Source: a virus. From it: a stretch of DNA of 21,756 nt. Below the pieces are notes generated by a model, which made no database searches, was not told the origin of the DNA, and saw nothing but the letters and a program-made list of their open reading frames with translations. Below are positions 18,632-21,720 of this stretch, one piece after another. Within the stretch, counting starts at the first letter, position 1, and each line of letters opens with the position of its first letter. The translations under genes were made by a program, and so were the position numbers. The stretch is from IMG/VR virus record IMGVR_UViG_3300026292_000040, positions 1 to 21,756 of that record. The stretch is one strand, 5' to 3'.

Positions 18632-19564
18632 ATGAAAGATACTATTCTATTTGGTGACTGTAGAGAAACACTTAGTGCCTTTATTGATAAGGCAAGAATG
18701 TGTGTTACATCTCCACCTTATTACGGACTGCGTGATTATGGTGGTGAAAAGTTACAAATAGGACAAGAAGAATCACCTGAAGAATACATTCAGAACCTAG
18801 TTGAAGTGTTTAGATCAGTAAGAGATTGTCTTACTGATGATGGTACTTTGTGGGTGAACATTGGTGACTCTTATTATAACTATAGACCTGGAAAAGGTCA
18901 GGCATTAGTTAAACAAACTGTGTCTAAGACTAAACAAGATTTACCAGACAAATGTGCTAAACGTGCTAACAAACTAGAAGGACTAAAAGAGAAAGATTTA
19001 ATCGGTATTCCTTGGATGTTAGCGTTTGCATTACGAGCAGATGGATGGTACTTAAGGCAAGATATTATATGGCATAAACCTAATCCAATGCCTGAAAGTG
19101 TGAAGGATAGATGTACTAAATCACATGAATACATCTTCCTACTAAGTAAGAACAAGAAGTATTATTATGATAATGATGCTATCAAGGAGCCAGCCAAAGA
19201 TTGGGGAACCAGAGATAGATCAAAAGGCAAATATCATAATAAAGGTACAGGTTTACAACCTCATTCTGGTCTTACTAAATCATATCCAACAAAGAATAAA
19301 AGATCAGTTTGGAGTATAACAAATAAACCATATAAAGGTGCTCATTTTGCAGTATTTCCACCTGATTTAATTAAACCATGTATATTAGCAGGATCACGCA
19401 AGGGTGATATAGTATTAGATCCTTTTATGGGATCTGGAACTACTGCTATGGTTGCAAAAGAATTAGGTAGGTATTACTTAGGATGTGAATTACATGAGGA
19501 CTATGGTAATTTGATAAACGACAGAACAGCACCCTACCATGCCAACCTTGAAAATTTCTTATGA
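18632..19564 (+). CDS. Solitary beta-class DNA methyltransferase (N4-cytosine or N6-adenine)
   Basis: The product has 310 residues. The catalytic motif IV, TSPPYYGLRDYG, is at residues 26-37, and the AdoMet-binding motif I, LDPFMGSGTTAM, is at about 262-273 near the C-terminus, the order of beta-class amino-methyltransferases. The motif S-P-P-Y with a following GLRDYG is typical of many N4-cytosine enzymes (PvuII-like), though N6-adenine enzymes with SPPY exist. In between are IIWHKPNPMPESV and a YIFLLSKNKKYYYD segment, conserved in this family. No restriction endonuclease gene lies nearby, so it is a solitary methyltransferase, probably protecting phage DNA or altering promoter activity. The recognition sequence cannot be read from the sequence. 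The start at 18632 sits exactly at the predicted transcription start. Confidence 0.88.
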   Translation: MKDTILFGDCRETLSAFIDKARMCVTSPPYYGLRDYGGEKLQIGQEESPEEYIQNLVEVFRSVRDCLTDDGTLWVNIGDSYYNYRPGKGQALVKQTVSKTKQDLPDKCAKRANKLEGLKEKDLIGIPWMLAFALRADGWYLRQDIIWHKPNPMPESVKDRCTKSHEYIFLLSKNKKYYYDNDAIKEPAKDWGTRDRSKGKYHNKGTGLQPHSGLTKSYPTKNKRSVWSITNKPYKGAHFAVFPPDLIKPCILAGSRKGDIVLDPFMGSGTTAMVAKELGRYYLGCELHEDYGNLINDRTAPYHANLENFL

Positions 19565-19565
19565 C

Positions 19566-19629
19566 TGTGACACTTTGCTAAGCTGCACACTCTATAAACC
19601 ATTCGTCCTAAAATAGAGTATTATATAAA
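19566..19629 (+). promoter_or_regulatory. Composite upstream module, copy A: TGTGACA / AAGCTGCACA / CCATTCGTCCT / TATA box
   Basis: TGTGACA (19566-19572), TAAGCTGCACA (19579-19589), CCATTCGTCCT (19599-19609), then TATAAA (19624-19629) as a likely -10. The same order and near-identical spacing recur at 20567-20630 before another gene, while the DNA between the boxes is not conserved. It starts 2 nt after the methyltransferase stop. The CGTCC box occupies the -35 region, suggesting an activator-dependent promoter. Confidence 0.7.
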
Positions 19630-19686
19630 TGTTGAGAGATCACTGGGTTTCTAACTACTCTGACATTCATCTTAATTAGACTTCGT

Positions 19687-19693
19687 AAAGGAG
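19687..19693 (+). promoter_or_regulatory. Strong ribosome binding site AAAGGAG
   Basis: AAAGGAG lies 9 nt before ATG 19703, one of the best Shine-Dalgarno matches in the window. It supports the 64-residue start over the in-frame ATG at 19781. Confidence 0.55.
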
Positions 19694-19702
19694 TTAGCAT
19701 AG

Positions 19703-19897
19703 ATGATAAAGCAGAGAAATGATGTTAGAGTAAAAAACTTCCTAGTCTTTCAACACTTTCGTCCTATACTAACGATTATCATGTCAGTTCAAACTGAGCA
19801 AAACGATCTATTTTTCGCATTGGAAAATGCAGAGAGTGGTCGTGAACTACTTGAAGCTATTGATGCTTATGTAGAGGGAGGTAGTCAAGAAGTATAG
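19703..19897 (+). CDS. Small unknown protein, 64 residues (alternative start 19781)
   Basis: The ATG at 19703 is backed by the AAAGGAG site. An in-frame ATG at 19781 would give only 38 residues (MSVQTEQNDLFFALENAESG and an acidic helix) and has the same ATTATCATGTC context as the gene at 20253. It is 15 nt after another TTCGTCCT box (19758-19765), so it may be a second start. The extra N-terminal part (KNFLVFQHFRPILTIIM) is basic and hydrophobic. The C-terminal part looks like the more protein-like, conserved portion. No function is recognised. A terminator follows at 19926. Confidence 0.55.
   Translation: MIKQRNDVRVKNFLVFQHFRPILTIIMSVQTEQNDLFFALENAESGRELLEAIDAYVEGGSQEV
19758..19765 (+). promoter_or_regulatory. 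Isolated TTCGTCCT box
   Basis: TTTCGTCCTATACT carries the same 8-bp box as the composite modules, 15 nt before the ATG at 19781. Neither TGTGACA nor AAGCTGCACA is seen upstream. It lies inside the longer version of the reading frame, so it may be coincidental. Confidence 0.35.
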
Positions 19898-19925
19898 AAC
19901 CTATTGTGTAAGTGATTGGTATTTT

Positions 19926-19955
19926 AGGAGGGAGTAGTGACCCCTCCTTTTTCTT
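19926..19955 (+). terminator. Rho-independent terminator
   Basis: AGGAGGG (19926-19932), a 9-nt loop, and CCCTCCT (19942-19948) followed by a T tract broken by one C. It closes the unit of the 64-residue protein; a TTCGTCCT box follows at once. Confidence 0.8.
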
Positions 19956-19964
19956 ATTCGTCCT
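19956..19964 (+). promoter_or_regulatory. Isolated ATTCGTCCT box
   Basis: ATTCGTCCTAAATTATTAAC directly follows the terminator T tract, 16 nt before the ATG at 19981. The distance to the start codon is nearly the same as for the box at 19758 (15 nt). No TATA box fits the spacing used in the composite modules. Confidence 0.4.
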
Positions 19965-19980
19965 AAATTATTAACAACAA

Positions 19981-20121
19981 ATGAACAAAGATTTCGACAG
20001 AGAGTTATCACAATTAGGTGATGATTCATGGGATTCAGTATCAGAGTCATTCTTAAATGATGAGAGTGGTGTTAAAGAAACCCTAGAATATGAGACACAA
20101 AAGTTACTTAATTATTTTTAA
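19981..20121 (+). CDS. Small acidic protein, 46 residues
   Basis: ATG at 19981, TAA at 20119-20121. The product starts MNKDFDRELSQLGDDSWDSV, contains SFLNDESG and ends in a hydrophobic QKLLNYF. It is acidic and probably helical, with no known motif. It stands alone: a terminator lies before it and a 131-nt gap with a promoter after it. The start codon follows AACAACAA with no Shine-Dalgarno sequence. Small acidic early proteins of this kind often bind host proteins, but that is only a possibility here. Confidence 0.55.
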   Translation: MNKDFDRELSQLGDDSWDSVSESFLNDESGVKETLEYETQKLLNYF

Positions 20122-20199
20122 TTGTTAATTAAAGTAACTACAACGCTACATATAGTAGTGATATATTTGTACCTGTTAATACATTATGAGTTAGTGAAC

Positions 20200-20228
20200 T
20201 TGACAATACTCTAATAATCAAGTAAAAT
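20200..20228 (+). promoter_or_regulatory. Sigma70 promoter TTGACA-17-TAAAAT
   Basis: TTGACA (20200-20205), a 17-nt spacer and TAAAAT (20223-20228). Transcription should begin near 20235, about 18 nt before the ATG at 20253, with CCAGG in the leader as a weak ribosome site. The remainder of the gap 20122-20199 shows only AT-rich sequence with a short palindrome near TTAATTAA. Confidence 0.75.
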
Positions 20229-20252
20229 TAACACTATCACCAGGTAATTATC

Positions 20253-20435
20253 ATGTCTCAAACTATCACCGACAGAGAGAAATTAACACGCTATCGTGTT
20301 ACTTTAGACCTAATGATTGACGACACATCATGTACTAATCCCGAAGATTGGAATTGGTATAATTTACTTCAACTCGAAAGAAGAGAGCAAGTTAATGATG
20401 TTTATGTCGAGAATATGGGAGACTATGTAGCATGA
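20253..20435 (+). CDS. Small unknown protein, 60 residues
   Basis: The product starts MSQTITDREKLTRYRVTLDL, then MIDDTSCTNPEDWNWYNLLQ and LERREQVNDVYVENMGDYVA. It looks helical with a Trp-containing core and one Cys. It is driven by the clear promoter at 20200 and coupled to the next gene by an ATGA overlap. No family is recognised. Confidence 0.6.
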   Translation: MSQTITDREKLTRYRVTLDLMIDDTSCTNPEDWNWYNLLQLERREQVNDVYVENMGDYVA

Positions 20436-20548
20436 ATGAAGAGGAATTTCTACTTAAATTTGGTGATGATGATCTTGAATATGAAGAATTTTATTATGAA
20501 GATTCTTCAGGAATAGAGCAAGATATTACTATCGAAGCACATGAATAG
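20432..20548 (+). CDS. Very small acidic protein, 38 residues
   Basis: The ATG at 20432 overlaps the previous stop by 4 nt; TAG at 20546-20548. The product (MNEEEFLLKFGDDDLEYEEF, then YYEDSSGIEQDITIE) is almost wholly acidic and aromatic. Translational coupling and coding-like composition support it, but its size limits confidence. An acidic mimic of DNA is one idea that cannot be tested from sequence. Confidence 0.5.
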   Translation: MNEEEFLLKFGDDDLEYEEFYYEDSSGIEQDITIEAHE

Positions 20549-20566
20549 CACCACTAAATGTTATCA

Positions 20567-20630
20567 TGTGACAGTAATATAAGCTGCACATAATATTCCC
20601 ATTCGTCCTGATTATGGACTATATTATACT
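20567..20630 (+). promoter_or_regulatory. Composite upstream module, copy B: TGTGACA / AAGCTGCACA / CCATTCGTCCT / TATACT
   Basis: TGTGACA (20567-20573), TAAGCTGCACA (20580-20590), CCATTCGTCCT (20599-20609), then TATACT (20625-20630) as -10. Compared with copy A the three boxes are identical in sequence and differ in spacing by 1 nt at most. The predicted start is near 20637, about 12 nt before the ATG at 20649. Confidence 0.72.
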
Positions 20631-20648
20631 TAACAAACAAATTTTATT

Positions 20649-21011
20649 ATGAACGCAGTTCCAACAATCGCAGTATTTCCTGAAGAGAAACTCACTTTAG
20701 ATCAAAAGATCGAGAAGTGGGTATATTTTTATGTGCAATCTTTGGAGGAAAACTATAACAGAAGATACCCAAATTCTTCTGATCCTGTTAAGTTTAAAAT
20801 GGAATCTGGTAGAAAGTATTGGAAAGTGAACCAAGTAAATGGTGGAGTTCATTCATTTGTTGATAAGAAAACAGGTGAAGTTTATAAACCAGCATCTTGG
20901 AGAGGGCCAGCCAAATATGTAAGATTTGATCTTAGAATTATTAATCAACGTGAGAGATTACATGATCCTAATTTTACAGATTGGGCAGGTGGTTATCTTT
21001 ATTTGAGGTAA
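20649..21011 (+). CDS. Conserved phage protein of unknown function, 120 residues
   Basis: The product starts MNAVPTIAVFPEEKLTLDQK. The centre (SGRKYWKVNQVNGGVHSFVD, then KKTGEVYKPASWRGPAKYVR) matches a pattern that I have seen repeatedly in T4-like cyanophages: a short beta-domain in which a residue series KYWK...VHSFVDKKTGEVYKPASW is followed by PAK-x2-R. The meaning of the domain is not known to me. The gene follows composite module B with a 12-nt leader and so should be regulated by it. The C-terminal part (DLRIINQRERLHDPNFTDWA) is charged. No membrane segment is seen. Confidence 0.68.
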   Translation: MNAVPTIAVFPEEKLTLDQKIEKWVYFYVQSLEENYNRRYPNSSDPVKFKMESGRKYWKVNQVNGGVHSFVDKKTGEVYKPASWRGPAKYVRFDLRIINQRERLHDPNFTDWAGGYLYLR

Positions 21012-21014
21012 ATT

Positions 21015-21158
21015 ATGCTAGTTGACTTAACAAAAAAGGAATTACAATCGTTGTGTGAGTTTATTACTTACAACAACGATATTGACAAGGAGATTGACAA
21101 CATCTATGATAAATTGAAGAGCATTTCTATTGCTTGCACTTGTAAAGAATCTAACTAA
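21015..21158 (+). CDS. Small unknown protein, 47 residues
   Basis: ATG at 21015, TAA at 21156-21158, 3 nt after the preceding stop. The product (MLVDLTKKELQSLCEFITYN, then NDIDKEIDNIYDKLKSISIA) is a helical, charged peptide with an LTKKEL start common in small phage helical proteins. It ends in ACTCKESN with two cysteines. It should be co-transcribed with the 120-residue protein. Function unknown. Confidence 0.58.
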   Translation: MLVDLTKKELQSLCEFITYNNDIDKEIDNIYDKLKSISIACTCKESN

Positions 21159-21166
21159 TTATTACT

Positions 21167-21313
21167 ATGTCAAAGAATATGACTGCAAAAGAGAAATTAA
21201 TTTTTCTCTTTTCTTTTGTTTGGTGTTTACATTGGGGAACATGTATTTTCTCGAAATTAGTGGATACGGTTATCCTAAATCAGTCTGTCAAAATGTTACC
21301 TACTGGTTTTTGA
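21167..21313 (+). CDS. Candidate small membrane protein overlapping the metallopeptidase gene
   Basis: ATG at 21167 (9 nt after the preceding stop) and TGA at 21311-21313 give 48 residues: MSKNMTAKEKLIFLFSFVWC, then LHWGTCIFSKLV. The first half has a Lys-rich start and one hydrophobic segment (residues 10-28), as in a short membrane protein. It overlaps the next gene by 73 nt, so at most one of the two frames should be conserved there. The segment that would be the transmembrane helix also forms a hairpin in DNA (21187-21212). Real gene or shadow is open. Confidence 0.3.
   Translation: MSKNMTAKEKLIFLFSFVWCLHWGTCIFSKLVDTVILNQSVKMLPTGF
21187..21217 (+). terminator. Hairpin, possible terminator
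   Basis: AAAAGAGAAA (21187-21196), TTAATT loop, TTTCTCTTTT (21203-21212), then CTTTTG. The stem is AT-rich and weak. It lies before the metallopeptidase ATG, so it may end the unit of the 120-residue protein, or it may simply be part of the 21167 reading frame. Confidence 0.4.
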
Positions 21314-21720
21314 ATAAGTATCTACCAAGACACAAGATTAACATCGAAATATTACATCGAAGGCTAAAAAGTGATGGCGTTTGTGGTTACTGTGACGTGA
21401 ACGGTAGTAGTTACAAACCTCGTAATTTTTTGATTGAACTTGATACTTACATGAAGAAAGAGTTATACATAAAAACCTTATTACACGAGTTAGTACACTT
21501 AAAACAGTGGGTAATTGGGTCACTAAGAGAGAAGCGAGGTAAAATGTATTATGATAAAGAGTTAATTAATAATTATGAATACTTATATCAACCTCACGAG
21601 ATTGAAGCACGTAAGGAAGAATTAATACTATACGATTTGTTCACTAATCATAAAGAAATGTGGACACTTCATGAAGCTGCACACAAATCCCCCAAACGAT
21701 TCCAGTTCGTTGTATATTAG
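21241..21720 (+). CDS. Small HExxH metallopeptidase-like protein, 159 residues
   Basis: The start at ATG 21241 gives MYFLEISGYGYPKSVCQNVT; the frame is open back to 21130, but those extra residues are an out-of-frame reading of two upstream genes and pass through a hairpin. Residues 80-90 (LLHELVHLKQW) carry the zinc-binding HExxH motif (His82, Glu83, His86). Residues 117-125 (QPHEIEARK) could give a third ligand or Glu120, as in gluzincin-type or SprT/ImmA-like proteins. Cys48 and Cys51 (CGYC) and Cys16 are present. It is small, without a signal peptide, so it is probably cytoplasmic. Small proteins of this type cleave repressors or DNA-bound proteins in other systems; the target here is not known. 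Its 3' end overlaps a diverged copy of the composite module. Confidence 0.62.
   Translation: MYFLEISGYGYPKSVCQNVTYWFLNKYLPRHKINIEILHRRLKSDGVCGYCDVNGSSYKPRNFLIELDTYMKKELYIKTLLHELVHLKQWVIGSLREKRGKMYYDKELINNYEYLYQPHEIEARKEELILYDLFTNHKEMWTLHEAAHKSPKRFQFVVY
21659..21718 (+). promoter_or_regulatory. Diverged third copy of the composite module (within a gene end)
   Basis: TGTGGACA (21659-21666) and the exact AAGCTGCACA (21674-21683) have nearly the same spacing as copies A and B. CCAGTTCGT (21702-21710) and TATATT (21713-21718) follow further on; the distance from AAGC to TTCG is 10 bp longer. It lies in the 3' end of the metallopeptidase gene, before an ATG at 21747. Confidence 0.4.

Follow-up and report, generated by a model that had tools for sequence, protein, structure and literature searches.

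The window, by which we mean the whole stretch of 21,756 bases that was analysed, comes from a T4-like cyanophage record. A methylase gene occupies positions 18632–19564, and its closest named relatives come from phages that infect Prochlorococcus and Synechococcus and belong to the Kyanoviridae or related groups. Beyond this gene, two promoter-like modules are found on the plus strand. The original prediction had described three identical boxes occurring twice in the same order, and this description proved exact: TGTGACA lies at 19566–19572 and 20567–20573, TAAGCTGCACA at 19579–19589 and 20580–20590, and CCATTCGTCCT at 19599–19609 and 20599–20609. The composite of the second and third boxes occurs twice in the window and not at all on its reverse strand, and a control pattern gave no occurrence. 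Single boxes recur elsewhere in the window (ATTCGTCCT at 19956, with a one-mismatch copy at 19757, and AAGCTGCACA within coding sequence at 21674), so the evidence rests on their combination.

Copy 1 of the module is followed by a structured leader RNA (19630–19755, plus strand), and the first ORF after this RNA encodes the 38-residue peptide MSVQTEQNDLFFALENAESGRELLEAIDAYVEGGSQEV (19781–19897, plus strand), starting 215 nt on from the first base of the site. A probable intrinsic terminator read in the sequence, AGGAGGG-agtagtga-CCCCTCCT-TTTT (19926–19954, plus strand), closes this unit of about 320 nt. The 38-residue ORF had no Pfam or PHROG match; a near-identical peptide is encoded in the close relative L007, in which a different hairpin sequence and a T run are present where the window has the terminator. 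Copy 2 lies upstream of a gene for a DUF7717 protein of 120 residues (20649–21011, plus strand; Pfam PF24835, E = 1.3e-31; hundreds of viral relatives), the start codon of which is 82 nt from the first base of the copy 2 site. By contrast, the ORF at 20253 is preceded by an ordinary host-like promoter, TTGACA-N17-TAAAAT, without the upstream site (20200–20228, plus strand, as read in the sequence). The sequence (A/T)TTCGTCCT is also present without the upstream site at 19956–19964, directly after the terminator and before a 46-residue ORF at 19980, and at 19757–19765, just past the outer helix of the leader RNA. Further downstream, the protein encoded at 21130–21720 strongly matches phrog_10499 (function unknown), and it has a weak SprT-like/DUF6782 metallopeptidase match below the curated cut-off.

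TGTGACA and TAAGCTGCACA are paired arms of a single 24-bp site and not separate boxes. Arm spacing was analysed in 846 kb of relatives that were gathered via homology to the DUF7717 protein, together with cultured phages chosen by name, and that were not selected for the motif. Exact pairs of TGTGNCA and TGNCACA occurred there 20 times with 10 intervening nucleotides, twice with 9, and once with 17; when one mismatch was allowed, 62 pairs were found at a spacing of 10, compared with 0–6 for any other single spacing in the range 2–20. In an IMG/VR scan with a stricter form, 122 of the 126 sites counted among the matches listed had a total length of 24. The site of the window appears to be a variant member of an element that is widespread in cyanophages, TGTGNCA-N10-TGNCACA. 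Copy 1 (TGTGACACTTTGCTAAGCTGCACA, 19566–19589, plus strand) and copy 2 (TGTGACAGTAATATAAGCTGCACA, 20567–20590, plus strand) both have the exact left arm and the length of 24, whereas the first two bases of their right arm, CTGCACA, depart from TGNCACA. This variant right arm (AAGCTGCACA, where the family has AAGTGNCACA) is common, with small changes, to the orthologous copy 2 of L007 and L008, and could reflect a lower affinity or a variant factor. The TGTG and CACA elements that had been proposed to form a separate inverted pair are the ends of this 24-bp paired site.

The element is linked at a fixed distance to a −10 sequence. The best −10 is most often placed 29–30 nt after the 24-mer in the family, and 29 nt after it in both window copies; among 163 sites taken in one orientation, a good −10 was present at an offset of 28–31 in 81 cases, compared with three at the control offset. 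A matrix that combined the site and the −10 was trained on loci from other viruses only, with the window excluded. Over the 21.7-kb window it matched only at 19566 (score 22.3) and 20567 (score 22.5; both best-strand scores), and ten shuffled windows together gave one match of at least 9. TATAAA and TATACT had been named as the −10 sequences, but the family geometry fits TATTAT (19619–19624) and TATATT (20620–20625), both on the plus strand and at an offset of 29. The predicted transcript 5′ end is at about 19630–19631 for copy 1, and the predicted start of copy 2 is at about 20632, which places the centre of the 24-mer about 54 bp upstream of the predicted start.

In this arrangement the third box, thought earlier to cover the −35 region, sits mostly in the spacer between −35 and −10 (about −32 to −22 for the first copy). 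The −35 hexamer of the window modules is poor. P-TIM40 carries a CACTACCG-like sequence in the same interval, and elsewhere a TTGAC-like −35 is found, which in many family members is a reasonable one. In the context of the module, CCATTCGTCCT is present outside the window only in the closest relatives, L007 and L008/L248, and the second copy has counterparts in the L007 and L008 orthologues. We read CCATTCGTCCT as a −35/spacer sequence particular to this lineage. The proposal of an activator that recognises the whole module stands as far as a promoter with a protein-type site is concerned, but CCATTCGTCCT, with its two closest relatives only, is no general activator box.

Variation within the arms bears on what recognises the element. 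The base at arm position 5 does not depend on that at position 20 (CG 278, AG 85, CT 85, and AT 32, where independence predicts about 274, 88, 88, and 29), and at positions 8 and 17 the prevailing combinations are G-G and C-C, neither of which can pair. The absence of covariation and these mismatches indicate a DNA site contacted by protein, most simply by a dimer, and not an RNA hairpin. A post-transcriptional role of the boxes as an RNA hairpin or terminator-type element would be in line with the inverted arms, with the good pairing on paper of some copies, and with the terminators that in some cases lie between the site and the −10. However, a hairpin would not be expected to prefer mismatches or to lack covariation between its arms, and the predicted transcript begins only downstream of the element, so this explanation is scarcely credible. 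The sequence that separates the boxes differs between the two copies, which upholds the earlier preference for protein-binding sites over a simple duplication. Recent duplication of one intergenic segment would account for two copies that are 1001 nt apart in one phage and have the variant right arm and CCATTCGTCCT in common. However, the unshared DNA between the boxes argues against it, as does L008, which has the module at both positions although the surroundings of its copy 2 have diverged beyond alignment; as a full account, duplication is refuted by the presence of the wider family in many phages. We therefore consider a recent duplication very unlikely, while a shared origin of the two window promoters is possible.

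The original prediction had expected the module to recur before genes in related genomes. This was borne out for the 24-bp element, which precedes genes in many of them; the exact composite was not found in IMG/VR because the right arm and CCATTCGTCCT are clade-specific. In P-TIM40, eight sites lie 80–91 nt ahead of annotated CDS starts (9268 to 15408 of L238), a range that is matched by the 82-nt spacing of copy 2, and in the whole 188-kb record of this phage strict or one-mismatch matches occur only at 50.3–55.0 kb. The P-HM2 sites are located at 35.7–39.8 kb, apart from a single weaker site at 86 kb, and its minus-strand sites precede minus-strand genes. In Syn9, the matrix gave ten placements scoring at least 14, some of which represent a single site read on both strands, compared with none in three shuffles. 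P-SSM7 and Syn9 are similar to P-TIM40 and P-HM2, with a more scattered distance to the annotated start. In all four phages the element clusters in a region of small hypothetical genes adjoining a DNA methylase gene, and this location beside the methylase indicates that the window promoters are most likely early. In many relatives, the intrinsic terminator hairpin of the upstream gene (e.g. CCCCCACTAGGGGGTTTTTT) is located between the 24-mer and the −10, so that terminator and promoter are interleaved (L006 at 691 and 4177, L019 at 954, and L041 at 3297).

The 24-mer is not used by every phage of the group: the matrix had no match in AG-345-O18 and several relatives, whose corresponding gene borders have a different repeated, promoter-like element. 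This element, TAAAGTGTCCYTATAGTG, is found in AG-345-O18 and in relatives without the 24-mer (L003 at 1739, 3946, 5755, 6427, and 7321; L013 at 146, 1540, 3003, and 4266; also L010, L254, L261, L271, and others) and occurs in 87 IMG/VR stretches. Some contigs, e.g. L271, seem to carry both promoter types. We take TAAAGTGTCCYTATAGTG to resemble promoters of the SP6/T7 type; a search of 20 records, most of them short, yielded no T7-type RNA polymerase gene, but it gave no signal in the control genomes either and is thus uninformative.

Several known systems resemble the 24-bp element in part. CRP/FNR-type sites have the form TGTGA-N6-TCACA, and the cyanobacterial NtcA site has the form GTA-N8-TAC. 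The inverted TGTG...CACA arms and the class-I-like position are similar, but the CRP/FNR pentamers are separated by N6, whereas the outer pentamers of the cyanophage element are 14 bp apart, with a fixed inter-arm N10. Assignment to the CRP/FNR type was rejected, as the unbiased loci contained no exact TGTGNCA/TGNCACA pair at arm spacings of 2–8 and nearly all pairs were at 10. Assignment to NtcA was rejected as well, since the window sites do not contain GTA-N8-TAC. In T4 middle promoters, a sigma70 −10 and a poor −35 are combined with an upstream MotA box near −30 and with AsiA. In outline the window modules are alike, since a sequence-specific element precedes a poor −35 and a −10 of the sigma70 type. 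However, the MotA box is short and located near −30, whereas the cyanophage element is a 24-bp paired site of different sequence centred near −54, and no MotA-type box was seen in the window sequence read, so the comparison with the MotA box that had been drawn holds neither in sequence nor in position. Doron and colleagues are reported to have described, in 2016, a novel regulatory element that controls the early genes of Syn9 and to have obtained comparable results for P-TIM40, and we presume that the 24-mer is probably this early-gene element. Their element reportedly lies upstream in T4-like cyanophage promoters that are not of the T4 kind, and the 24-mer family is present in the small-ORF regions of both Syn9 and P-TIM40. 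Marine T4-like cyanophages are reported to be without motA and/or asiA and without T4-like middle promoters (PMC5780444), and their genes are reported to fall into three temporal classes (PMC5082946).

We consider it likely that the two modules are phage promoters with a host sigma70-type −10 and a 24-bp site for a helping dimeric protein, most likely active early. The polymerase of the host, bearing its principal sigma factor, would use TATTAT and TATATT, and a dimeric DNA-binding protein positioned in a class-I-like manner on TGTGNCA-N10-TGNCACA would most likely aid the binding of polymerase. Copy 1 would then drive the short unit of leader RNA, 38-residue ORF, and terminator, and copy 2 would drive the DUF7717 gene. 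We infer that the protein is an activator rather than a repressor. Near-palindromic sites beside promoters are typical of repressors, and the many family members with a TTGAC-like −35 in place might need no activation, both of which would suit an operator that silences the promoters at a later stage of infection (or until late). Such an operator is nevertheless improbable: the 24-mer lies upstream of the −35 and −10 and not over them, it keeps a constant distance to the −10, as activators in contact with polymerase do, and in both the window and P-TIM40 other sequence takes the place of the −35, so help seems to be needed.

The helping protein could in principle come from the host, with the phage copying a host regulatory signal. 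Promoters that act first in infection would need a factor that is already present or injected, and a few strict sites are indeed present in cyanobacteria, where two of them precede purH-like genes (L212 and L226). However, strict 24-mers were found in only 26 stretches of an 84,980-species collection, none of which bears the name Prochlorococcus or marine Synechococcus in its title; among 291 genomes from the cyanobacterial phylum, 3 had such sites. Such rarity would be unusual for the site of a global host regulator, although a looser host site is possible, and we regard a host factor as rather doubtful. The rarity of strict sites in bacteria instead leans towards phage-specific use and a factor that may be phage-encoded or packaged. 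A candidate for this factor, Syn9 gp230 (76 residues, annotated as 'transcriptional regulator'), had no Pfam or PDB match. The same 24-bp palindrome is present, mostly in intergenic positions, in the acidobacterial genome of Pyrinomonadaceae bacterium SSF56 (L211, L216, L219, L221, L229, and L231); there and in the cyanobacteria it possibly serves an unrelated regulator with a similar site.

The leader RNA downstream of copy 1 is the part of the locus that is most likely to be new. It was delineated by folding, by covariation, and by a model (R1), and comprises an outer helix (19630–19639 paired with 19746–19755) and a conserved core (19662–19711). The fold of the window leader has a z-score of −3.69, and the sequence scores 69.4 bits against R1, with the window sequence among the 30 used to build the model. 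The core consists, in order, of a covarying stem, UUAAUUA, a stem strand GACUNN, the loop GYAAA, the strand NNAGUU, AGCAUA, and a covarying stem, so that the consensus UUAAUUAGACUNNGYAAANNAGUUAGCAUA is held inside covarying helices. In 30 distinct leader sequences, 96.4% of cells pair, compared with 72.3% in shuffles, and slid structures pair at 21–38%. The covariation score is 0.629, compared with 0.149 ± 0.022 for 500 shuffles, none of which reached 0.629. The outer helix differs in sequence among loci. When leaders were folded from the 5′ end predicted by the promoter, the first bases paired beyond the core in 28 of 34 loci, some of which are near relatives and not all independent. In the window, the predicted 5′ end is also where the outer helix starts. 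This provides independent support for a start at about 19630, a point on which the original prediction had called for a check, and for the promoter call. At the promoter-like TAAAGTGTCCYTATAGTG elements, the leader helices begin right at the TATA/GTG boundary.

The Rfam 15 covariance models gave no match to positions 19560–19900 at E values up to 5, nor to five other leader loci at E values up to 1. The manA RNA (RF01745) is also a structured RNA of marine cyanophages, but the window leader matches neither this nor any other Rfam 15 family. A manA RNA was itself detected in the collected sequences, in Marine virus AG-345-P14 (L004, 12273–12474; 163 bits). The core pattern of the leader occurs in 59 IMG/VR stretches, with further cores located in L003 (5847–5896), L007 (2985–3034), L008 (4873–4922 and 5896–5945), and the cultured phage P-TIM68 (L300, 2994–3043); by similarity, the leader RNA is present in P-TIM68 and in a second cultured phage, P-RSM6. 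The leader RNA usually occurs once per genome, which weakens the idea that each early promoter carries a put-like site for antitermination.

Taken further, and only tentatively, the data may reflect a two-part system shared by marine T4-like cyanophages, in which a lineage-wide 24-bp site would recruit a phage-specific activator, and a new class of cis-acting leader RNA, at a subset of promoters and usually once per genome, would possibly control the elongation, stability, or translation of takeover genes. The outer helix of this RNA would start with the first bases transcribed, and the RNA would present a GNRNA-type loop and an internal loop that is conserved. These findings bear on how takeover starts without the T4 factors in T4-like cyanophages, which are very abundant viruses of the ocean. 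The exact definition of the element, a 24-mer with N10 between its arms and a −10 at 29–30 nt, allows probable targets to be listed for each genome and the binding protein to be sought with one oligonucleotide. The leader RNA adds to this a structured RNA that is supported by covariation, is absent from Rfam, and is found in dozens of viral contigs and two cultured phages.
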